Positions 5,711-59,579 of a stretch of DNA of 64,000 nucleotides are shown here, piece after piece (positions within the stretch are counted from its first letter, which is position 1; every line of letters begins with the position of its first letter). The notes beneath the pieces were generated by a model. It made no database searches. It was not told where the DNA came from and worked only from the letters and a program-made list of their open reading frames with translations. Source of the stretch: Chitinispirillaceae bacterium (GTDB taxonomy: Bacteria > Fibrobacterota > Chitinivibrionia > Chitinivibrionales > Chitinispirillaceae). The stretch lies in assembly GCA_016930275.1 (NCBI GenBank), contig JAFGHA010000108.1, forward strand, positions 1 through 64,000, read 5' to 3'. The position numbers were made by a program, and so were the translations under genes.

Positions 5711-6451
5711 TTACTTCACCATCACAATCAGTGAAATCTTCAAATCCTTTCCTGAAGAGGGAAGTTCTATTTCCGTTGCAGGATACTTCTTGTCGTTGAT
5801 GATGATCGTGTTGTCGGTGATCGCAGATATGGAGCTGACATTCTCCATACCGAGGTACTTGTCACCGTTTTTCAGTAAAAGTTGTACATGGCTGTTCGGT
5901 GTAAGGGTTTCAAGCAGTTTATTGTCGACTACCGTGCCACCGGTTACATAAAAATTGAACTCGGCGATGGAAAAACCGTATTCCGCCTGCATCGTAAGTG
6001 TTGGTGTTCCCATGATGTTTTCCATCGTGACGGTCGGGGTTTTGGAGAGCATACCGGCAGGATGCATACTCTTATTGCCGGCGCTTGCGGGAAAATGACC
6101 TGATGAAAGAATCATGCGGGAGGAATCGGTGATTTCAAGAACGGAAAATCCCATGGGTCCGATAAATTTAGCGGCCATCTCGGTAACGGCAGGCGCTGAC
6201 CGGTCGTTTTCCGCCAGAATTCGAAGGGAAAATTCCTTATCAGCACCTATAACCTCGGCGAGTGATTGCAGCTGTCGTTGAATACCGGATGAGAAATCAT
6301 CGAGTTGCTTCTGAACGGTTTCCTGTGCTGTTGTCAGATTATCAGCGGCACGTTTCGCGTTTAGTTGTGAATGCACCATAGTTAGCGCGAAGAATGTCCC
6401 TCCTGCTGCAACAACAGCTGCGATACCTACGGCGATTATAACGGTTTTCAT
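5711..6451 (-). CDS. Membrane-anchored extracytoplasmic sensor-like protein, function unknown
   Basis: N-terminal TM, coiled segment, then domain ...GFSVLEITDSSRMILSSGHFP... resembling sensory domains of transmembrane receptors; no output domain. Confidence 0.6.
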   Translation of the reverse strand: MKTVIIAVGIAAVVAAGGTFFALTMVHSQLNAKRAADNLTTAQETVQKQLDDFSSGIQRQLQSLAEVIGADKEFSLRILAENDRSAPAVTEMAAKFIGPMGFSVLEITDSSRMILSSGHFPASAGNKSMHPAGMLSKTPTVTMENIMGTPTLTMQAEYGFSIAEFNFYVTGGTVVDNKLLETLTPNSHVQLLLKNGDKYLGMENVSSISAITDNTIIINDKKYPATEIELPSSGKDLKISLIVMVK

Positions 6452-6628
6452 ACTATTCCTTTTAAAATTGAGTTAAGCATGAGTTTCAGTACAAAATAAA
6501 ACAGTACGTATTTGGTGACAATTATTTACCGGTTCAGCCGGTATTTATCTGACACTGTAATAGCCTACCTGAAAGGTTTTAAAAAATATTACTACACTCG
6601 TATTTATACAATTCAGTGGAAAAGACCT

Positions 6629-7648
6629 CTACTGACGCTCCGAGATCGCGATTAATTTATTGTATTGAAAACGGAGTTCATGAGAAGGGTACGTCCATAT
6701 TTCGCCGTTGGTGGAGTCGTCGGGCTGCGGTACAATGGAGAGGGGGTATCCCCAGCTTGCCGTCACCTGATCAGTAGTCATTTCAAGAATAACGCGGTGG
6801 TTGTTTACAACTTCCCACATATTCTCATCCCATTTATAGAGATCCGCCGGATTGGTTTCGTATATATCCTCATCCCATGGTTGCCGGTCGGATCGCCGGT
6901 CGATCATGGTATTTGTCCAGCTGATACGCAGGGGTATGAATCCTTCGGTATTGTCATTCATTTTCACCATGAGCCATAGCGGTTTAACCGGGAGAGGGGT
7001 CATTCCCCAGCGTACATTCACTACCAGAAGAGAGTCCTGTATGCGGATACGTTTACTGGAAATTGTTGCCGTTGCAGAGGTACCCAGTTGTGAGATTACT
7101 CCTTTTTTTGAAAAAACGATACGATTCAACCACCGTGCGCGTGCAGCGGTCAGGTCATCGGAAAACGCGATTTCGTTTATTGCCTGTTTATAGGTTCGTG
7201 CAAAGAGCCGTTTTTCGCTTGGAATGTGTGCAAAAGTTATCAGCCACTCGTTTGAATCGGGCTCAACCTTATCCACATATACCGAGTCGCCGCCTATTTT
7301 GCTGCACAGGATACGGTGACCGCTGTTTTCCCAGTCGGGATTGACCGGCATGGTATCGCACTCATTTTTATCACGACAGGTAGTGAGTGAATAGCCCTGT
7401 GCGCAGAGCAGCTTTTGTTTTGGCAGTATGATGAATTTTTTTCCGATCCACTCAGGAGGTGAAAGTAACTGTGGAATTGCATCGTTCGGCGGTTGTACTG
7501 GTCGGGATGCTGAATCCGAAGAACCTGTAGATAAGGTTATGTGATGATTTTCGACGGAATCAGGAACCAGGATCGTGGAGGAGTTTCTGACCGGTGCCGT
7601 ACAGAGAATAATGGTTGTAATTACAAGTAACAGTAGAAAAATTTTCAT
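6629..7648 (-). CDS. Secreted/periplasmic hypothetical protein with BamE/SmpA-like C-terminal motif
   Basis: N-terminal signal-like segment; C-terminus MTTDQVTASWGYPLSIVPQPDDSTNGEIWTYPSHELRFQYNKLIAI resembles SmpA/OmlA-type repeats. Confidence 0.55.
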   Translation of the reverse strand: MKIFLLLLVITTIILCTAPVRNSSTILVPDSVENHHITLSTGSSDSASRPVQPPNDAIPQLLSPPEWIGKKFIILPKQKLLCAQGYSLTTCRDKNECDTMPVNPDWENSGHRILCSKIGGDSVYVDKVEPDSNEWLITFAHIPSEKRLFARTYKQAINEIAFSDDLTAARARWLNRIVFSKKGVISQLGTSATATISSKRIRIQDSLLVVNVRWGMTPLPVKPLWLMVKMNDNTEGFIPLRISWTNTMIDRRSDRQPWDEDIYETNPADLYKWDENMWEVVNNHRVILEMTTDQVTASWGYPLSIVPQPDDSTNGEIWTYPSHELRFQYNKLIAISERQ

Positions 7649-7838
7649 GGTACAGAGATTCGGATGATATTGTGAAAAAGAAGTAACAGGAAATCAAATA
7701 CGATCTGGTGCATGAAAGAGTCAATACACCTTAGCCTCAGGTTCCGTTTGATACTATTTTACACTAAACGATCAGGTAAACCCAACATTTTTCAAATATC
7801 TGAATTGTGCAGATTCAGGATAAGGATTTGGGTGGAGA

Positions 7839-9164
7839 ATGGAAACAGTTACCGCATTGCTGGGTACGATTAACGGGAAGTTATGGGGCTGGCCGATGAT
7901 TATTATTCTCGTCGGAACACATATTTTTCTGACGATTCGGCTGAAAGGTATTCAGCGGTACATATGGTACGGGATACGACTGTCGTTGCAGCGGAAAAAG
8001 GAGGGGTCGGGGGACATCAGTCAGTTCGGTGCGCTGACCACGGCTCTGGCGGCAACGGTGGGTACCGGAAACATCGCTGGCGTAGCCACCGCGATAACGG
8101 CAGGCGGGCCAGGTGCGGTATTGTGGATGTGGCTCACCGGTGTATTCGGGATCGCCACCAAATACGGCGAAGCACTTCTATCCGTCAAATATCGTATTGT
8201 TACTTCAGACGGTTCTTTCGCCGGCGGGCCGATGTATGTTCTGGAGCGGGGACTTAAGAGCAAACCGCTGGGAATCGTATTCGCAATTTTTACCGCTCTG
8301 GCCGCATTCGGTATCGGCAATACGGTACAGTCGCATGAGGTTGCGATGCTCGTGCATGAGACCTTTAATATCGAACCATGGATTACCGGTGTTGTGCTTG
8401 CCGTTATGACTGCTCTGGTCATTCTGGGAGGAGTGGGTTCCATTGCGCGGACCTGTGAACGACTGGTGCCGTTCATGGCGTTTTTTTATGTCGCAGGTTG
8501 TGTTATGCTTATGATAACATTCGCTGCCGATATTTTTCCGGCAATCAAACTGATTATTTCAAGCGCATTCAGCGGGCAGGCGGCTGCAGGTGGTTTTTTA
8601 GGGGCAGGTGTACGTGAGTCGGTACGGTACGGGGTTGCCCGGGGGCTTTTTTCGAACGAATCGGGGATGGGAAGCGCTCCTATCGTCGCCGCTGCCGCAC
8701 AGACGAAAAACCCGGTGCGTCAGGCACTGGTGAGTGCCACTGGTACCTTCTGGGATACGGTAGTCATATGTGCCCTGACAGGAATTGTCATTGTTGCATC
8801 CGGAGAATGGGTCTCGGGAGCGAGCGGCGTGGCACTGAGCAAAGCGGCATTTTCGCATCTTTCAAAAATCGGTCCCTATTACCTGACCATAGGACTTTTC
8901 GTGTTTGTCTTTTCGACAATACTCGGGTGGTCCTATTACGGAGAAAAGGCAGTTGAATATCTTTTGGGGAAGCGCAGTATCAAACCGTATCGTTACCTGT
9001 GGATCGCGGGAGTGATGATAGGTGCGGTGGTCAATGATGCGGTCTGGTCGTTCGCCGATATTTCAAATGCGCTGATGGCATTGCCGAACATTCTCGCACT
9101 TCTGTTGTTGAGTGGTGTGATCGCACGGGAGACGCGGGAGTATTTTAAGGGAACTGAACGGTAA
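7839..9164 (+). CDS. Alanine or glycine:cation symporter (AGCS) family
   Basis: FGALTTALAATVGTGNIAGVATAITAGGPGAVLWMWLTGVFGIATKYGEALLSVKYR...GGPMYVLERG...ARGLFSNESGMGSAPIVAAAAQT: AGCS signature. Confidence 0.95.
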   Translation: METVTALLGTINGKLWGWPMIIILVGTHIFLTIRLKGIQRYIWYGIRLSLQRKKEGSGDISQFGALTTALAATVGTGNIAGVATAITAGGPGAVLWMWLTGVFGIATKYGEALLSVKYRIVTSDGSFAGGPMYVLERGLKSKPLGIVFAIFTALAAFGIGNTVQSHEVAMLVHETFNIEPWITGVVLAVMTALVILGGVGSIARTCERLVPFMAFFYVAGCVMLMITFAADIFPAIKLIISSAFSGQAAAGGFLGAGVRESVRYGVARGLFSNESGMGSAPIVAAAAQTKNPVRQALVSATGTFWDTVVICALTGIVIVASGEWVSGASGVALSKAAFSHLSKIGPYYLTIGLFVFVFSTILGWSYYGEKAVEYLLGKRSIKPYRYLWIAGVMIGAVVNDAVWSFADISNALMALPNILALLLLSGVIARETREYFKGTER

Positions 9165-9204
9165 TGGTATTCTGTATTCATCGGATAAAAAGGTTTCCGG
9201 AACA

Positions 9205-10080
9205 ATGAGTATTTTTCAATCGCTGATTATCAGTATCAGGCCGAAACAGTGGTCTAAAAACATTATTGTTTTCGCTGCGGTGCTTTTTTCCAGAAACATA
9301 TTCAATCCTCATCTTTCATTAACGGTTGCAACGGCCTTTGTCGTTTTCTGTATGATTACCGGAGCAACCTATCTTCTGAATGATATTGCCGACCGGGAAA
9401 ATGACCGTCATCATCCGGAGAAGGCGGTACGACCGATCGCATCGGGCCGCCTGTCGGCAGGGATGGCCGGGGTGAGTGCGGCGGCTGCCGTTGCCGTCGG
9501 ACTTTGCGGAGCATGGATGCTGCACCCCTCCTTTTTTTCGGTTACGGCTGCTTATTTACTCCTGCAACTGCTCTACACGTTTCTGCTCAAACGGATCGTC
9601 ATCCTCGATGTGCTGGCCATCACCACCGGATTTGTGCTGCGCGTACTTGCCGGAGCGGTGGTGATCGATGTGGAGATTTCGTCGTGGCTGCTGATCTGCA
9701 CCTTTCTTCTGGCACTGTTTCTTGCTCTCTGCAAGCGTCGCCATGAACTTACACTGCTTGAAGAAGGGGCGGGGAAACACCGGAAGGTACTGCAGGAGTA
9801 CAGCATCTCGCTGCTTGACCAGATGATCTCCATGACCACGGCATCTACTCTTATCGCTTATACGCTCTATACGCTTTCCGATCGTACCGTCGCGAAGTTC
9901 GGTACCGAAAAGCTGGTGTTTACCGTACCGTTTGTCGTGTACGGAATATTCCGCTATCTGTACCTTGTACATATAAAGAAAGCGGGAGGAAGTCCCGAGA
10001 TGCTGCTCCTGACGGATCTTCCGCTTGTTGGCGGAATAATCGGCTGGGGGGTGTGTGCCGGTTTGATTATTTATTTTTAG
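9205..10080 (+). CDS. UbiA-family prenyltransferase, decaprenyl-phosphate phosphoribosyltransferase-like
   Basis: RPKQWSKNIIVFAAVLFS...NDIADRENDRHHPEKAVRPIASGRLS...FLALCKRRHEL: DPPR-synthase-like UbiA motifs. Confidence 0.88.
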   Translation: MSIFQSLIISIRPKQWSKNIIVFAAVLFSRNIFNPHLSLTVATAFVVFCMITGATYLLNDIADRENDRHHPEKAVRPIASGRLSAGMAGVSAAAAVAVGLCGAWMLHPSFFSVTAAYLLLQLLYTFLLKRIVILDVLAITTGFVLRVLAGAVVIDVEISSWLLICTFLLALFLALCKRRHELTLLEEGAGKHRKVLQEYSISLLDQMISMTTASTLIAYTLYTLSDRTVAKFGTEKLVFTVPFVVYGIFRYLYLVHIKKAGGSPEMLLLTDLPLVGGIIGWGVCAGLIIYF

Positions 10081-10128
10081 ACGGGAGCATCGTCAGATGT
10101 TTATAATTTTCATGAAAGCGGGAGTGTT

Positions 10129-11430
10129 ATGAAAAAACCGCAGGTCGCCATTGTTGCCACCGATCCATCAACCGTACTCGATGATTATCACCACGTGATG
10201 AATCTGGCCCGGTATCAGAAGCATATAGATAAAAAGCTCGATACAGCACTCAAGGTGAACATCAGCTGGCACTATTTCTATCCGGGGAGTTCCACCACGC
10301 CGTGGCAGCTTGACGGGGTCATCCGTTCCATGAAGCGTGACGGGTACGATCCGGCGCTCATTCACGCGTGTCATAACCGGACGGTGGTCATTGATGCGCA
10401 TTTCGGTGAGCGACAGAACAAACAGCTCGACGTGGTGAAGTCGCATGGGCTGCGAAACATACATCTGTACGAGAACGAAGAGTGGATCAATATATTCGAT
10501 GCCGTCGGTGATCTGATGAAGGACTTCATCTGTCTCAACAAGGTATACCCGAAAGGCTTTAATATTCCGAAGCGGTTCATCGGCGAAAACATCATCCATC
10601 TTCCCACGGTCAAAACGCATGTGTTCACCACCATGACCGGTGCAATGAAAAACGCTTTTGGTGGTTTGCTCAACGAGCATCGCCACTGGACACATCCGGT
10701 TATCCACGAAACGCTCTGTGACCTCCTGATGATCCAGAAAAAAATCCATCCCGGGCTCTTTGCCGTAATGGACGGCACCTTTGCGGGAGACGGTCCCGGA
10801 CCACGCTGCATGGTGCCGCATATAAAAAATGTACTGCTCGCCTCCGCTGATCAGGTGGCGATTGATACGGTATCAGCCTATCTTATGGGATTCGACCCGC
10901 TCAAGGATATCAAGTTTATCCGAATGGCGCATGATCGCGGGCTGGGATGTGGTGACATCAGGGAAATCGAAATAACGGGAGATGTGCAGCTGCTCGAGAA
11001 GCGGTGGAATTTCGTGGGACCGTTCAAAAAAATGACCTTTGCTTCGAAAATGCAGCATCTGATCTACTGGGGGCCGCTGAAAAAACCCCTGGAATGGAGC
11101 CTGAAAACGTTTCTTGCTCCGTGGTCATATATCGCCAGTGTTCTCTACCATGATTTTTTCTGGTATCCGATGCATCTGAAGCGGGTAAATGCGGTATTGA
11201 AAAGCGGATGGGGAAAACTCTTTCACAACTGGGAATTGAAAGCGCTTCCTGCCGATGATCTTAAAACCAGAGGGTTTGTCGATACCGGCAAGGAGGCCTA
11301 CCGGCTTGACCGGAGCAGGCTCCCTTCGGTGGTACGGTCGCTGAAAATCCTCTCGACCTGCATCAAGGAGGCGCCGGAGCTCTCGACAAAGAAAAAAACT
11401 ATTGTGCAAGCTGCGGCACCAGCTGAATGA
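10129..11430 (+). CDS. DUF362-domain protein
   Basis: LKVNISWHYFYPGSSTTPWQLDGVIRSMKRDG...HLPTVKTHVFTTMTGAMKNAFGGLL...AVMDGTFAGDGPGPR...VLLASADQVAIDTVSAYLMGFDP. Confidence 0.85.
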   Translation: MKKPQVAIVATDPSTVLDDYHHVMNLARYQKHIDKKLDTALKVNISWHYFYPGSSTTPWQLDGVIRSMKRDGYDPALIHACHNRTVVIDAHFGERQNKQLDVVKSHGLRNIHLYENEEWINIFDAVGDLMKDFICLNKVYPKGFNIPKRFIGENIIHLPTVKTHVFTTMTGAMKNAFGGLLNEHRHWTHPVIHETLCDLLMIQKKIHPGLFAVMDGTFAGDGPGPRCMVPHIKNVLLASADQVAIDTVSAYLMGFDPLKDIKFIRMAHDRGLGCGDIREIEITGDVQLLEKRWNFVGPFKKMTFASKMQHLIYWGPLKKPLEWSLKTFLAPWSYIASVLYHDFFWYPMHLKRVNAVLKSGWGKLFHNWELKALPADDLKTRGFVDTGKEAYRLDRSRLPSVVRSLKILSTCIKEAPELSTKKKTIVQAAAPAE

Positions 11431-32641: not shown

Positions 32642-32716
32642 GCGAGAGTAGCTCAGTGGTAGAGCTCCACCTTGCCAAGGTGGCTGTCGCGAGTTCAAGT
32701 CTCGTCTCTCGCTCCA
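32642..32716 (+). tRNA. tRNA-Gly (anticodon GCC), CCA encoded
   Basis: Acceptor GCGAGAG/CTCTCGC, anticodon arm CCACC-TTGCCAA-GGTGG, T-loop GTTCAAGTC. Confidence 0.96.
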
Positions 32717-32721
32717 AATTT

Positions 32722-32752
32722 TGGGCTTCTCCTTGCGGGGAGCCCTTTTTTT
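32722..32752 (+). terminator. Rho-independent terminator between the two tRNAs
   Basis: gggcttctcc-ttgc-ggggagccc followed by T7. Confidence 0.8.
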
Positions 32753-32754
32753 CC

Positions 32755-32826
<72 letters not shown>

Positions 32827-44109: not shown

Positions 44110-44330
44110 GTTAACGCTGGGAAACCGTTTTTGAATAATGTCGGTAAGGTTATGGCGCTGATCGTTGAAATTGCTGCCGCGAGTGCGGAACAGGCGCAGG
44201 GGATCGATCAGGTGAACAAAGCCGTGGCATAGATAGATTCAACGACGCAGAGCAACGCCGTCACCCCCTTCCCCCCCCGAAGAGTCCGCCTCGGCCGTAT
44301 CCGGGGAAGCGGATACAGCCGCTACCGTGC
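44110..44330 (+). pseudogene. MCP signalling-domain C-terminal remnant
   Basis: Reads DVNAGKPFLNNVGKVMALIVEIAAASAEQAQGIDQVNKAVA*IDSTTQSNAVTP then, after a frame change, EESASAVSGEADTAATV: MCP C-terminal helix with an in-frame stop and frameshift. Confidence 0.75.
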
Positions 44331-44816
44331 GACCTCTTTGGAATAGATGATCTTGTCGTCGTTGTCGTCGTAGAAATTTCTTATATGCGCTTCGACGATG
44401 TATCCGTGACGATGATAGAAATGTCTGGTGGCGTCGTAGTCGGCGCGGGAAGAGGTCTCGATGTAGACCCTCTTTCCCCCCATCGCACGGATGAGTTTTT
44501 CAGTCTCGATAATGAGGTGCGAACCGATTTTTTTTCCATGCCGGTTCTTATCCACCGCAATCCAGAAGAGATCATGGCTGGCGACGGTACAGGCGATCGG
44601 GCCGTAGCAGGTGTAGCCGACGGGAATTCCGTTTTCTTCGGCGAAGACGAAGTAATACCCGCTGGCCGTACCACGACTGAGCCGTTCCTCGATAAGTTCG
44701 ACGGCAACGTCGATTTCATCCGGGCGGAAGGCGTTGGTCGAGGTGACGATGGAGCGGATGGCGGCGATGTCCGATTTTTCAGGGTCGGTTCTCAGGGTGA
44801 TTCCGTATGATTGCAT
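44322..44816 (-). CDS. GNAT-family N-acetyltransferase
   Basis: PVGYTCYGPIACTVASHDLFWIAVDKNRHGKKIGSHLIIETEKLIRAMGGKRVYIETSSRADYDATRHFYHRHGYIVEAHIRNFYDDNDDKIIYSK. Confidence 0.93.
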   Translation of the reverse strand: MQSYGITLRTDPEKSDIAAIRSIVTSTNAFRPDEIDVAVELIEERLSRGTASGYYFVFAEENGIPVGYTCYGPIACTVASHDLFWIAVDKNRHGKKIGSHLIIETEKLIRAMGGKRVYIETSSRADYDATRHFYHRHGYIVEAHIRNFYDDNDDKIIYSKEVAR

Positions 44817-51282: not shown

Positions 51283-53451
51283 TTACCGGTCAGTGTCCGT
51301 TTGCTTCTTTTGTGGCGACACCCACACTTCGATATCATCAACTATGTAATTCTCCCCGGAAAAGGTAACCGTACTGCCCCCGGGTGCATTGAGCAGTGTT
51401 GCTGCGGCAACGGAGGTATAAGAGAGGATATTGTTTGCAGGATCTGAGTCCCAGGGACCAAGAATCGTGAGTATAACGGGTTTTGCTGCCGTACCTGGTG
51501 CGGGTTGCAGACAAAAACGGGTTCCGATCGATATTTTCGAGGTATCGACCGTGTCGGGTTCAATCGGGCGTGTCGCGATGAGTTCATCATGGAGCGTCTT
51601 TGCGCGGGAGGAAAGCAGCTCCTGTTGGCGGCGGGCTTCATGATACTCGAAATTTTCGCGTAAATCTCCATATTCGCGGGTCCTCTGGATCTCCCTGGCG
51701 TTCCTGGGGATATCTTCCGTGATCAGCTTTTCGAACTCGATTCGTTTATTTTCAAGCGCCTCTCTGGTAACGAACAGGAAATCCTGTTTCGTTTCGTGGA
51801 GCTCCGGAAAAAGGGTGAAGAATTTCTGGCGAATGCTGTCCTTTACATAATCTTCGAGTTCCCGGGCGCGCAACAGGGTGTCGAGCAGGGAACGGCTGTT
51901 TGATGCATCGAGAGTTTCTATCGCCCGGTCGACTGCTTGGCCGGGATTGAAAAGTTTTCGTAATGCCGAACGGTGGCCTTTAAAGGATGCATCGTCAAGT
52001 ATTCCGCAGAGAGAGTGGAGGAAATCCCGGTTCGCATAGTGGTGCAACTCCGGCCTTTTCGGTATCTCTTTGCAGAGCCACAGATAGAACTGGGGATTGC
52101 CGGATGGATGCAGAAAAGAATCTTCGACCACCGGACCGAGAATATCGTGATAATCTCCGCTGTGCAGGGACTCGTACAGTAATTTGAGGGTGGAGGTATC
52201 AGTCTCGGTTTTCAGCAGCGCGCCGTATAGTGGGGGCCAGTCACTCCGGGAGTGCACGACGATCTGGATTGCCTTTCGGCGGACGGCACGGTCGCAGATG
52301 CCTGCAATAACAGTGTCGGCGTCGGTACCTTCGAGAAGATCTTCGGCAGTACACGGCATCGCAATGTCGTTACTTTGTGCCGAAGTTGCAACAGTCAAAA
52401 CTATCTCAAGCGCCAGGGATGGGTCGGATGCAAGGGCGTCTTTTGCCTCATTGGCCAGTACCATCGCCATTTCTACTGACAGTGCCTCGGACCTCGCTGC
52501 ATGTTTTTTCAGCATCGCAAGCTTATCACCGGGTGAAGCCTGCATAAACGTTGCCATCAACCCGGCACTTCCTTCGGACACTGAATCGTTCCACTCGAGC
52601 TTTGGTTTCGTGCCCGATCCTGCAATCAGACGCGGATCCTTGCGGGCGTGTGCCCACCAGGTGTTCCACTGATCATCGGGAACAACCGCCGAGAGCATCT
52701 CCCGAAGTTCATTAAGGGTCACTTCGCGCCGGATGCTTGCAAAAAGCAACCGCAGCAGTTCACCCGGATCATTTTCTGACAGTTGTTTGAGATCATCGAG
52801 GTCGATAATCGTTCGGGCAAGAAAATGGTCATTTCTGAGCGGCTGGGCCAAGCGCTCCGCCTCATCGATACGGAGGGTCATATGCTCGTTGTTTTTAAGG
52901 GATAATCGCACAACGCCTATCTTCAGATTGGCCTCCTTGATTCGTGCTACTCCTTTGGCCGGCATATAAACGACACGACCTTCATCGTAGCGCAACCATT
53001 GTTCCAGTCGACGGAATTTATCACCACCTGAGCTATTGTCAAGCACCTTGAAATGTCGGGTATACAATACACAATTCGGGCTGTCGGGGTACATGGCTTT
53101 AAGGTGGTTAAGTAACTGTTCCCGGGCATAGGTGCACTCCGGCCAGAACCCGAGCACTGCGAGCAAAAGGAAAATCTCGGCGGTAAGGTCATGGCGTGCC
53201 TTCAGACTCTCGACCTGTAAATCAAGGAAGGCGGAAGCCCGGTTACTTTCCTGTTTCCTGATGAATGCACGATATGCGGGAAGGTAAAAAGCAATGTCCT
53301 GCGGTGCCTCATCCAGGCGCTCCATAAGAAGGTTGTCGAGCTTTGAGGGATCGTTCGAATCTATAAGAAGTTGATATTCAGCCGGGGTTTTCGGGAACGT
53401 CGGTGAATGCAGGAGCAGGCCGTTTTCCCAGTTGCAGGTTGTTTCGATCAT
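51283..53451 (-). CDS. Long GreA/GreB-C-domain transcription elongation factor-like protein
   Basis: C-terminal ~160 aa: REIQRTREYGDLRENFEYHEARRQQELLSSRAKTLHDELIATRPIEPDTVDTSKISIGTRF...ILGPWDSDPANNILSYTSVAAATLLNAPGGSTVTFSGENYIVDDIE; preceded by ~550 aa helical region. Confidence 0.85.
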   Translation of the reverse strand: MIETTCNWENGLLLHSPTFPKTPAEYQLLIDSNDPSKLDNLLMERLDEAPQDIAFYLPAYRAFIRKQESNRASAFLDLQVESLKARHDLTAEIFLLLAVLGFWPECTYAREQLLNHLKAMYPDSPNCVLYTRHFKVLDNSSGGDKFRRLEQWLRYDEGRVVYMPAKGVARIKEANLKIGVVRLSLKNNEHMTLRIDEAERLAQPLRNDHFLARTIIDLDDLKQLSENDPGELLRLLFASIRREVTLNELREMLSAVVPDDQWNTWWAHARKDPRLIAGSGTKPKLEWNDSVSEGSAGLMATFMQASPGDKLAMLKKHAARSEALSVEMAMVLANEAKDALASDPSLALEIVLTVATSAQSNDIAMPCTAEDLLEGTDADTVIAGICDRAVRRKAIQIVVHSRSDWPPLYGALLKTETDTSTLKLLYESLHSGDYHDILGPVVEDSFLHPSGNPQFYLWLCKEIPKRPELHHYANRDFLHSLCGILDDASFKGHRSALRKLFNPGQAVDRAIETLDASNSRSLLDTLLRARELEDYVKDSIRQKFFTLFPELHETKQDFLFVTREALENKRIEFEKLITEDIPRNAREIQRTREYGDLRENFEYHEARRQQELLSSRAKTLHDELIATRPIEPDTVDTSKISIGTRFCLQPAPGTAAKPVILTILGPWDSDPANNILSYTSVAAATLLNAPGGSTVTFSGENYIVDDIEVWVSPQKKQTDTDR

Positions 53452-56340: not shown

Positions 56341-58086
56341 TTACTGCGGCAGGGATGCATTCCGCAATCCCGTCAGAAACCTTCGTGCATTGATGCCGAG
56401 TACGCGGGTGGAGTAACCGCCTTCCTGCGCCACCAGTGTCGGGAGTTTGAGCGCACCGATCAGGTTTCCGTTGAGTTCGAAATCGTGTGCTCCCAACGTC
56501 CAGGTACCGGTCGGATCGCCTTTCGCCGTGTCAAGCCCGAGCGAAACAACCAGGAACATCGGTTTGAACCGGGCGATCCGTTGAACTGCCTGTGTAAGGT
56601 AGCTCCGGTACAGAATACCGTCACACTGTTCGGGGATCGGATAGTTGCAATTATATCCTTTTCCTTCCCCTTCTCCACGTTCCTCCCGGAAACCGCTGAA
56701 ATATGGATAGGCGAAACTCGGATGTCCATGCAGTGAAATGGTAAGCACGTCGCGGCGACGATAGAAAATATCCTGATGCCCGTTCCCATGGTGGTAGTCG
56801 ATGTCGAGTAGCGCGACGGGACCTTCTCGACTGAGCATATTCGCGGCGATTGATGCGTTGTTGAAATAGCAGAATCCGCCGAAGGACCTGAACTCCGCAT
56901 GATGCCCGGGCGGCCGGACCAGCGCGTAGGTTATCCGGGTTCCCCGGAGCAGGAGATCCGCGGCGGTGAGCGTGCAGTCTACCGCATGCCGCGCCGCGGT
57001 AAATGCATTGTTGTTGAGGGGAGTAAAGGTGTCGATACAGTAGTATCCCGCCCGGACGGCAAGTTCCTTGGGCGGACGGGCAGTGTTACGGATCGGAAAG
57101 ACATATGGATACACCGAATTTCCGGGGGCCAGCGTTTCACATACATTACGGAAGTAGTCGATATATTCCTGTTTGTGTACCGCGGTAAGATGCTGTTCGG
57201 AAAAGTGTCGCGGTTCGATCCGCTGAAACAGGTCGTTGTGTTCGATCTCACGCAGGATCGAACTGATGCGCACCGGTGTTTCAACATAGCCGCGGTCATG
57301 CACATGATGAATCGAATGACGGTCGTTGACGACATAGAAGATACGGTGATCGGCCGGTACCTGAACCGCCGGGAGCCGGCGCGGGGTATTTTTTTTCTGA
57401 TACCGGGGGGGGCGTATCGTCAAAACGGGATCAGTTACCGATCCGAAAATTTTTTCCACATAGCCGGGCGGACAGCGTTTTCCGTATTTCAGTTCCAGAA
57501 TCGCGCTGAAAATTTCGCGGGCTTCGCTGTTTGACGGTGGCGGGTTCGTTTCGAGCGGGTCGAAGACCAGATACGGCGGACAATCATCACCCGGCTCGAA
57601 TGGCGTTTCCCAGGCGGTGCCGGTGATCGGCCGTGCGCCGTATCGTTCGTAAAACCGCAACCGTTTCTCATTCTGTCTGAGTACCTCAGGATCACGACAG
57701 AGATTCGGATCGTCGGGAAGACACTCATAGTATAGTCCATTTACTTTAAGAAAGCTCGCCTCATCCCTGATACGTTCGTAAAGCGCTCCGCCGATTCCCC
57801 GGGAAGTGAGCTTTGAAGAAGAGGAAAGATAATCGAGAAAGCAGAACCGGAGGTGCTGTTCATACGAGAGAAGTGCGAATCCCTGTACCGTTCCCCGGCC
57901 GTTTTCGGCGACGAAAAGAATTGACCGGTACCGGAATTTAAGAGGATTGCTCAATTTTTCCTGCAGTGAAGTGACTTCAGCCGGTCGAAGACCGGGAAAT
58001 TGTTCACGCAGTATCTGCTGCACCTGCTCGATCGCCGTACGGTCAATCGGCAGTGTCGTACCGGATACACAGCGAATTCTGAACAT
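56341..58086 (-). CDS. GNAT acetyltransferase - histone deacetylase/acetylpolyamine amidohydrolase family fusion
   Basis: N-terminal GNAT (SILFVAENGRGTVQGFALLSYEQHLRFCFLDYLSSSSKLTSRGIGGALYERIR...RFYERYGARPI); C-terminal HDAC fold (VRPPGHHAEF, GGFCYFNNASIAA, LLDIDYHHGNGHQDIFY, SLGLDTAKGDPTGTW, VAQEGGYS). Confidence 0.92.
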   Translation of the reverse strand: MFRIRCVSGTTLPIDRTAIEQVQQILREQFPGLRPAEVTSLQEKLSNPLKFRYRSILFVAENGRGTVQGFALLSYEQHLRFCFLDYLSSSSKLTSRGIGGALYERIRDEASFLKVNGLYYECLPDDPNLCRDPEVLRQNEKRLRFYERYGARPITGTAWETPFEPGDDCPPYLVFDPLETNPPPSNSEAREIFSAILELKYGKRCPPGYVEKIFGSVTDPVLTIRPPRYQKKNTPRRLPAVQVPADHRIFYVVNDRHSIHHVHDRGYVETPVRISSILREIEHNDLFQRIEPRHFSEQHLTAVHKQEYIDYFRNVCETLAPGNSVYPYVFPIRNTARPPKELAVRAGYYCIDTFTPLNNNAFTAARHAVDCTLTAADLLLRGTRITYALVRPPGHHAEFRSFGGFCYFNNASIAANMLSREGPVALLDIDYHHGNGHQDIFYRRRDVLTISLHGHPSFAYPYFSGFREERGEGEGKGYNCNYPIPEQCDGILYRSYLTQAVQRIARFKPMFLVVSLGLDTAKGDPTGTWTLGAHDFELNGNLIGALKLPTLVAQEGGYSTRVLGINARRFLTGLRNASLPQ

Positions 58087-58202: not shown

Positions 58203-59579
58203 ATGCCCCCGAACAAATCAGGCAGGGACTGCACTACCGGAAGTATCCCCCGCCACCTGCTCGCGGTCGCTGCCCCCATGCTGATTGGTAACTTCATCCA
58301 GTCGGGTTATGCCATTATCGATGCGGTATGGGTCGGACGGGTTGTCGGGAAGGAGGCGATCGGCGCTATTGCGGTAAGTTTTCCGGTACTGTTTCTTTTC
58401 ATTGCCGTCGCTGCCGGGGCAACCATGGCGACCACCATTCTGATTTCGCAGTATTTCGGCGCCGGAAATCTGGAACAGGTGAAAAAAACGATCGGCGCCT
58501 CAATTTTTTTTGCAATACTGCTCAGTGTGGTTATTTCGACGGCAGGGATTTTCACCACCGATCATATTCTACGATTGCTTAAAACACCGGAATCGATCAT
58601 TCCCGCCGCGTCGCAGTATCTTAAAATCAATTTCGGTGGCTTCCTTATTATGTATTGCGGATTTCTCATCGGATCGATACTTCGTGGTATCGGCGATTCG
58701 AAGACCCCTCTCTACTTCATGATTGTCGGCGTTGCGGTCAATGCGGTGCTTGATCCGCTGCTCATTATCGGGGTTGGTCCGTTTCCCCGTCTCGGGCTGG
58801 GAGGGGCGGCAGTCGCCTCGATTTGCGGCCAGCTGATCGCCACCATCATCGGTTACGGCTACCTGCGGAAGAAAAAAAATATCGTTGCCGTTGATCTGCA
58901 TCTGATCGGCTGGAATCCTGAAAAAATTCGGTTGATCATGAAAATCGGATTTCCTTCAATGCTGCAACAGTCGGCGGTATCACTCGGTATGGCCACCATT
59001 ACCTCGATTGTGAACGGCTTCGGTGACACCGCTACGGCTGCGTTCGGAGCCGCCGGGCGTATCGATACGGTGTCGATGTTTCCGGCGATGTCGATCGGCA
59101 TGGCGGTATCGATCATAAGCGGTCAGAATATCGGTGCCGGGAAGCATGCACGGGTGCGTCAGGTGTTCAAATGGGGTATGTTCATGACGGTTGCAGTTTC
59201 TCTTTTCTTCACGTTTTTTTATCTGACGATTCCGAAATTCCTGCTTTCGGCATTTCTTTCCGATCCGGACGTCCTGGCGATCGGCGCGAATTTCCTCAGA
59301 ATCGTCGGGCCGGGGGAACTCTTCTTCGCCATGGCATTCGTGGCGAATGGTGTTATCAATGGTGCGGGACATACCCGGGTGACTCTTGTTTTCACCATCC
59401 TCGCTCTCTGGGGGGTACGGGTACCCGCCGCCAAATTTCTTTCAGAGACCGGTCTTGGTATCAACGGTATCTGGCTTGGTACGGTGTTCGGTTTTTTCAC
59501 CAGTATGCTGCTGAGCACGATCTGGTACTTTTCGGGAAGATGGACCAGACAGGTTATCAAGACACGATCGGCGACGTAG
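58203..59579 (+). CDS. MATE-family efflux transporter
   Basis: Twelve-TM-like; AVWVGRVVGKEAIGAIAVSFPVLFLFIAVAAGATMATTILISQYFGAGN...RGIGDSKTPLYFMIVGVAVNAVLDPLLI...FPAMSIGMAVSIISGQNIGAG. Confidence 0.95.
   Translation: MPPNKSGRDCTTGSIPRHLLAVAAPMLIGNFIQSGYAIIDAVWVGRVVGKEAIGAIAVSFPVLFLFIAVAAGATMATTILISQYFGAGNLEQVKKTIGASIFFAILLSVVISTAGIFTTDHILRLLKTPESIIPAASQYLKINFGGFLIMYCGFLIGSILRGIGDSKTPLYFMIVGVAVNAVLDPLLIIGVGPFPRLGLGGAAVASICGQLIATIIGYGYLRKKKNIVAVDLHLIGWNPEKIRLIMKIGFPSMLQQSAVSLGMATITSIVNGFGDTATAAFGAAGRIDTVSMFPAMSIGMAVSIISGQNIGAGKHARVRQVFKWGMFMTVAVSLFFTFFYLTIPKFLLSAFLSDPDVLAIGANFLRIVGPGELFFAMAFVANGVINGAGHTRVTLVFTILALWGVRVPAAKFLSETGLGINGIWLGTVFGFFTSMLLSTIWYFSGRWTRQVIKTRSAT

Follow-up and report, generated by a model that had tools for sequence, protein, structure and literature searches.

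A GNAT acetyltransferase and an HDAC-type deacetylase on one chain in a Chitinispirillaceae bacterium, and their probable link to a lysine aminomutase module

Introduction

What would a bacterium do with a single protein that could both add an acetyl group and remove one? The question is raised by a gene in a 64,000-nucleotide stretch of a Chitinispirillaceae genome (GCA_016930275.1, contig JAFGHA010000108.1), referred to here as the window. In the original prediction, the gene product was read as an acetyltransferase of the GNAT type joined to a deacetylase of the HDAC/acetylpolyamine amidohydrolase (APAH) superfamily. A reversible acylation switch or a polyamine acetylation cycle was put forward as its role, and it was held plausible that a nearby MATE exporter shares its substrate, such as a cationic amine. 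Since the opposing heads lie on one chain and are kept together over seven or more phyla, it has to be asked how futile cycling is avoided.

Results

Architecture of the fusion protein

The frame at 56341..58086 on the (-) strand is intact; it starts with an ATG, contains no internal stops and encodes 581 aa. A domain search of this frame matched GNAT models to residues 20-150 and Hist_deacetyl (PF00850) to residues 268-571 (E = 6.7e-73), and the motifs named in the original prediction (RGIGGA, PPGHH within RPPGHH, DIDYHHGNG and LGLDTAKGDP), as well as EGGY, were all found in the protein. The chain comprises an N-terminal GNAT domain (residues 1-180; 57547..58086, (-)), supported by Pfam searches of 12 family members, AlphaFold2/Foldseek and conservation; a linker (residues 181-267; 57286..57546, (-)) with two predicted helices (186-200 and 209-216), the conserved motif ILE.KY and the start of a second, RGYVE.PVR; and an HDAC/APAH domain (residues 268-571; 56374..57285, (-)). 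The model of the full-length protein has a pTM of 0.59 and is too weak for reading the domain orientation.

On the full protein the GNAT models match below the curated cut-off (E = 6e-4 and 1.5e-3), and Acetyltransf_1 rises over it when the 245-aa N-terminus is scanned alone (21.9 vs 20.7 bits). With the N-terminal part as query, 11 of the 12 family members matched GNAT models in Pfam, the best at 1e-7. The AlphaFold2 model of the N-terminus has GNAT topology (pLDDT 84, pTM 0.83), and a Foldseek search of the PDB with this model retrieved GCN5, AAC(6')-Ii, PaiA and SpeG (E ~1e-8 to 1e-6, probability 1.00). The acetyl-CoA loop RGIGGA occupies residues 96-101 of the domain, on the (-) strand, and N139 and Y146 lie within the motif N..RLRFYERYGA. 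In the 51 aligned homologues G97, G99, R142 and Y146 are invariant (51/51), and N139 and E121 are conserved in 50/51. The N-terminal domain has both the fold and the acetyl-CoA-binding (Q/R)xxGx(G/A) loop that define the GNAT superfamily, and belongs to it as a divergent member.

These residues bear on the possibility that one head is a non-catalytic ligand sensor, for example an acetyl-CoA-sensing GNAT which gates the deacetylase. The weak Pfam match of the GNAT on the full protein would agree with such a role, and opposing activities that have been fused invite regulation. However, the glycines of the acetyl-CoA loop, N139, Y146 and E121 are near-invariant over seven or more phyla, beyond what a degenerate sensor would need, and we regard a sensor head as very unlikely.

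In the C-terminal domain, the predicted zinc ligands and catalytic dyad are intact. The His dyad H395-H396 (RPPGHH; 56899..56904), the zinc ligands D430 and H432 (DIDYHHGNG; 56791..56799) and D519 (LGLDTAKGDPTG; 56530..56532), and the catalytic tyrosine Y558 (EGGY; 56413..56415), all on the (-) strand, are each conserved in 51/51 homologues. The domain therefore has the complete set of a classical zinc deacylase, namely two Asp and one His as zinc ligands, the His-His dyad and the Tyr. RPPGHH and EGGY are associated with true deacetylases (PMC11532494), and the fusion keeps both. Judged from these conserved residues, both heads are apparently catalytically intact.

The polyamine question

The nearest solved relatives of the HDAC domain are the APAHs 9gkz, 6phr and 3q9b, and the GNAT fold also matches the spermidine acetyltransferase SpeG; both would suit a cycle in which the fusion makes N-acetylpolyamines and hydrolyses them again. 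We compared the domain with bacterial APAHs from cluster 4 of the classical deacylases (Mycoplana ramosa APAH, 3q9b; P. aeruginosa PA1409; Pseudomonas sp. ApaH, 9gkz). The fusion shares their fold family and has identical RPPGHH, D-x-H and EGGY catalytic motifs, and it is ~37-41% identical to plasmid-borne APAH-like proteins. In contrast to them it carries an N-terminal GNAT and a linker, and its substrate-determining residues differ. E117 of the M. ramosa enzyme, which binds the polyamine amine (PMC5454378), is replaced by F354, invariant in 51/51, and E106 by Ala, Pro or Ser. The PIS gatekeeper which follows the third zinc ligand in the acetylpolyamine deacetylases of cluster 4 (PMC11532494) reads PTG in 50/51 members of the fusion family and PSG in 1/51, so that neither E117 nor PIS, the marks of that group, is present. 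The region of the L2 loop, which is linked to polyamine specificity, is of similar length in the alignment (~326-356) and has an invariant sequence of its own; the model has a pLDDT < 50 at 328-353. Moreover, no gene of polyamine biosynthesis recurs nearby, and a lysine/β-lysine module recurs instead. With its polyamine-binding acids replaced, the acetylation cycle on polyamines that was originally suggested now appears improbable.

Occurrence of the fusion

Each of the 51 aligned homologues, which represent Fibrobacterota, Desulfobacterota, Myxococcota, Acidobacteriota, Omnitrophota, Auribacterota and PVC, is a full-length fusion, so that the survey of the domain pair bore out the predicted pairing far beyond the window genome. 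At least seven bacterial phyla contain the GNAT-HDAC fusion. When the GNAT part alone was searched against GTDB contigs, 11 loci were obtained, each a fusion of ~576-635 aa with 54-61% identity to the window protein; they belong to Acidobacteriota, Deltaproteobacteria including Myxococcota, Desulfovibrionaceae, Auribacterota, Omnitrophota, PVC and Chitinispirillaceae, with one unplaced. In whole-genome draws, named after the named loci on which each was centred, the family turned up in 3/168 Fibrobacterota genomes (all of the window's own genus) and in 4/384 from the Omnitrophota draw; the Desulfobacterota draw had it in 34/345 genomes and a third draw in 8/237. No GNAT part in these draws stood apart from an HDAC part, save for one case at a contig edge (L091/L123). 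Relatives of the N-terminal part were found neither in viral contigs nor in plasmids, and a viral or plasmid origin of the fusion was dropped.

The assembly that holds the window is fragmented and somewhat contaminated (87% complete, 7.4% contamination), which could be taken to favour an artefact of annotation, assembly or reading frame. Against this, the gene is a single open frame with the same architecture in all 51 homologues. In addition, a second GNAT gene on the same contig (GNAT2, see below) is 69-75% identical to the GNAT2 of sister species, because of which we assign the contig to the genus. The homologues refute the artefact reading, whose probability we consider practically nil, and we hold it virtually certain that the fusion is real.

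The tree suggests that the window species and its sister species may have acquired the fusion independently; a single clade of the two is not rejected (p-AU 0.325). In the tree of HDAC domains, APAHs of Pseudomonadota sit on a long branch within the fusion group, and because of this placement a single origin of the fusion is neither shown nor excluded.

A recurrent gene neighbourhood

A MATE gene starts at 58203 (+), 116 bp from the fusion, and encodes a genuine MatE, in line with the exporter originally placed ~115 bp away on the opposite strand. The idea of a shared substrate did not hold up, as the MATE gene does not lie beside the fusion in two sister species. In the sister species and other loci the neighbours are unrelated and include a histidine kinase, an MNT/HEPN pair, a trehalose synthase and others, and MATE co-function was dropped because the neighbour is not conserved.

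Clustering of ORFs around 52 loci, from which clusters of antisense ORFs of GC-rich genes were left out, gave one recurrent set of neighbours, made up of the lysine 2,3-aminomutase KamA, the small second GNAT (GNAT2) and two ATP-grasp ligases (A and B) that resemble D-Ala-D-Ala ligase (Ddl). The fusion is flanked by these genes in Desulfobacterota and, outside that group, in Auribacterota (L038) and Omnitrophota (L124). In the Desulfobacterota draw, ATP-grasp A (presence threshold E <= 1e-60) lies <=3 kb from the fusion in 13 of the 34 genomes that have it, and is present in 33/34 of these against 90/311 genomes lacking the fusion (Fisher p = 1.7e-15, uncorrected for phylogeny). The sole genome with the fusion and no full ATP-grasp A (G631) does have ATP-grasp B and GNAT2, and it retains a truncated form of A: immediately ahead of B (L154, G631:C56), apparently only the first ~67 residues of A are left, through deletion or assembly collapse. 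In Fibrobacterota the ATP-grasp was found in 3/3 genomes with the fusion and 1/165 without.

The module also has an existence of its own. Counted by its ATP-grasp, it occurs in 123/345 sampled Desulfobacterota genomes, about a third. KamA and A were both present in every one of 20 genomes without the fusion, B in 19 of them and GNAT2 in 17, and the gene order was the same; no other gene recurred as widely.

Covalent joins occur among the same parts. In five genomes GNAT2 is attached to the C-terminus of the GNAT-HDAC protein to give a GNAT-HDAC-GNAT of ~755 aa; four of these proteins form one clade on the tree and the fifth (L124) stands apart, which suggests that the join may have arisen at least twice. 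ATP-grasp B is fused to GNAT2 in three loci (L116, L137, L153), and A to B in L124. These joins tie GNAT-HDAC, GNAT2 and the ligases to one pathway, and we consider a functional link between the fusion and the KamA/ATP-grasp/GNAT2 module quite probable.

The KamA of the module matches 2a5h at 1e-138. Asp293 and Asp330 (2a5h numbering), which bind the ε-amine of lysine, are kept in all 47 copies in which both are readable, and the protein thus qualifies as a lysine-specific 2,3-aminomutase; its scores of 488-493 bits fall slightly below the AblA cut-off of 525. AblB (TIGR03827) did not score above its cut-off in 12/12 genomes, so that the known AblB was rejected as the acetyltransferase of the module, and GNAT2, the fusion or both could stand in for it. 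Control by an osmotic or β-lysine riboswitch was likewise set aside: none was detected in seven module loci and one fusion locus, where the only match was a piece of a group II intron, near the KamA module (L102, 11986-12062, (-)). One locus (L128) has two different KamA genes flanking the fusion and no ATP-grasp nearby, the ATP-grasps being on another contig.

Discussion

Metabolite or protein as the target

In Bacillus, the GNAT AcuA and the deacetylase AcuC oppose each other on acetyl-CoA synthetase (AcsA). The fusion could be a one-chain counterpart, a reversible switch of protein-lysine acylation whose target protein might be one of the KamA module enzymes; like that pair, it combines a GNAT with a zinc deacetylase, and the Bacillus system is precedent for such opposition on one target by a class-I-type deacetylase. 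GCN5/PCAF are among the structural matches of the GNAT head, and bacterial APAH-type enzymes retain some activity on acetyl-lysine (PMC11532494, in which both AcuA and AcuC were used). However, AcuA and AcuC are two proteins, whereas the fusion is a single chain with an APAH-like deacetylase domain, found with a metabolic module. Its recurring partners are small-molecule enzymes, with no conserved CoA-ligase target among them, and GNAT2 is covalently joined both to the fusion and to an ATP-grasp ligase, which suggests a metabolite. A protein switch, one of the two roles first proposed, therefore seems doubtful to us.

Since the fusion travels with a gene set for β-lysine, it probably acts on a small molecule of that pathway and not on polyamines or histones. 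On balance we lean slightly towards the view that it is the acetylation/deacetylation enzyme of a pathway which starts with the conversion of L-lysine to β-lysine; its substrate, direction and physiological role, and the order of steps given here, are what we infer. KamA would isomerise lysine to β-lysine, and the two Ddl-like ATP-grasp ligases would couple β-lysine, or a derivative of it, to other amino acids, after which GNAT2 would acetylate an amine. The fusion would then control whether the intermediate or product is acetylated, with the GNAT head adding an acetyl group and the zinc head removing one. This might serve protection and deprotection during assembly, or retrieval of the free amine once the product is no longer needed. 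The two heads may act on the same amine, as a reversible switch, or on two amines, one to be protected and the other deprotected. Several points speak against this explanation. In 90 Desulfobacterota genomes the module occurs and the fusion does not, so that the core pathway would not need it; the window genome has the fusion, GNAT2 and the KamA/ATP-grasp genes at three separate places; the module loci scanned gave no osmotic or β-lysine riboswitch; and the genomes counted for co-occurrence are not independent of one another in phylogeny.

Relation to known systems

The system for N-acetylglutaminylglutamine amide (NAGGN) uses a GNAT and an ATP-grasp synthetase to make an N-acetylated dipeptide solute, and the module likewise pairs a GNAT with ATP-grasp enzymes, although its ligases are Ddl-like and joined to KamA. 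The AblA/AblB route to Nε-acetyl-β-lysine is found in methanogens, green sulfur bacteria and Bacillus. It shares with the module a lysine 2,3-aminomutase and an acetyltransferase, whereas the module adds two ATP-grasp ligases and the GNAT-HDAC fusion and, going by the TIGR03827 result in the 12 genomes above, its acetyltransferase is not AblB. This route has been proposed for Pelobacter carbinolicus as well (PMC3543383). With Nε-acetyl-β-lysine and NAGGN as models, the product would most plausibly be some N-acetylated β-lysyl compound, such as a compatible solute. Derivatives of β-lysine are known to serve as solutes, and Na+ and c-di-AMP riboswitches can control ablA (PMC9337991). In one Omnitrophota locus (L040) a CdaA-type diadenylate cyclase and a trehalose-phosphate synthase (6722-10613) lie downstream of the fusion, and a trehalose synthase/phosphatase is near one sister-species copy (L041); these are anecdotal hints of osmotic stress.

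No description of the fusion or the module was found in the open-access literature searched; the GNAT plus Hist_deacetyl architecture may be listed in subscription papers or domain-architecture databases. GNATs receive no more than a passing mention in the main survey of bacterial classical deacylases. The enzyme superfamilies are known ones, in a covalent pairing and a pathway that are apparently undescribed. More tentatively, and with a confidence that stops a little short of even, we propose that KamA, the two Ddl-like ATP-grasps, GNAT2 and GNAT-HDAC constitute an undescribed system, widespread in anaerobic bacteria, which would make a new β-lysine-containing, peptide-like metabolite whose acetylation is set both ways by one bifunctional enzyme. 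The linked four-gene module, with enzymes that are apparently intact and a product that is without description, would offer a route to such a metabolite, which might be a stress solute, and would give enzymes of the HDAC family a new class of substrate.

Module parts in the window genome

A complete set of the five parts is present in this genome. KamA (9864-11294), ATP-grasp A (8647-9681) and ATP-grasp B (7607-8629) stand in a row on another contig (L134, G000:C25), adjoined by a sigma-54-dependent activator (6131-7546); an activator of like kind lies beside the module in eight loci. GNAT2 is a stand-alone gene of 164 aa within the window (44322..44816, (-)) and is orthologous to the GNAT that goes with KamA and the ATP-grasps in the module (profile E = 1.5e-58; Acetyltransf_1 1.9e-11). 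A second KamA-family protein of this genome (G000:C124:28310-29167) scores 231 bits to TIGR00238. Elsewhere in the window, the frame at 51283-53451 (-) encodes a protein of 722 aa with a GreA/GreB-like C-terminal part and a long N-terminal region without a Pfam match, and two adjacent tRNA genes at 32642-32826 (+) are the only Rfam matches within the window.
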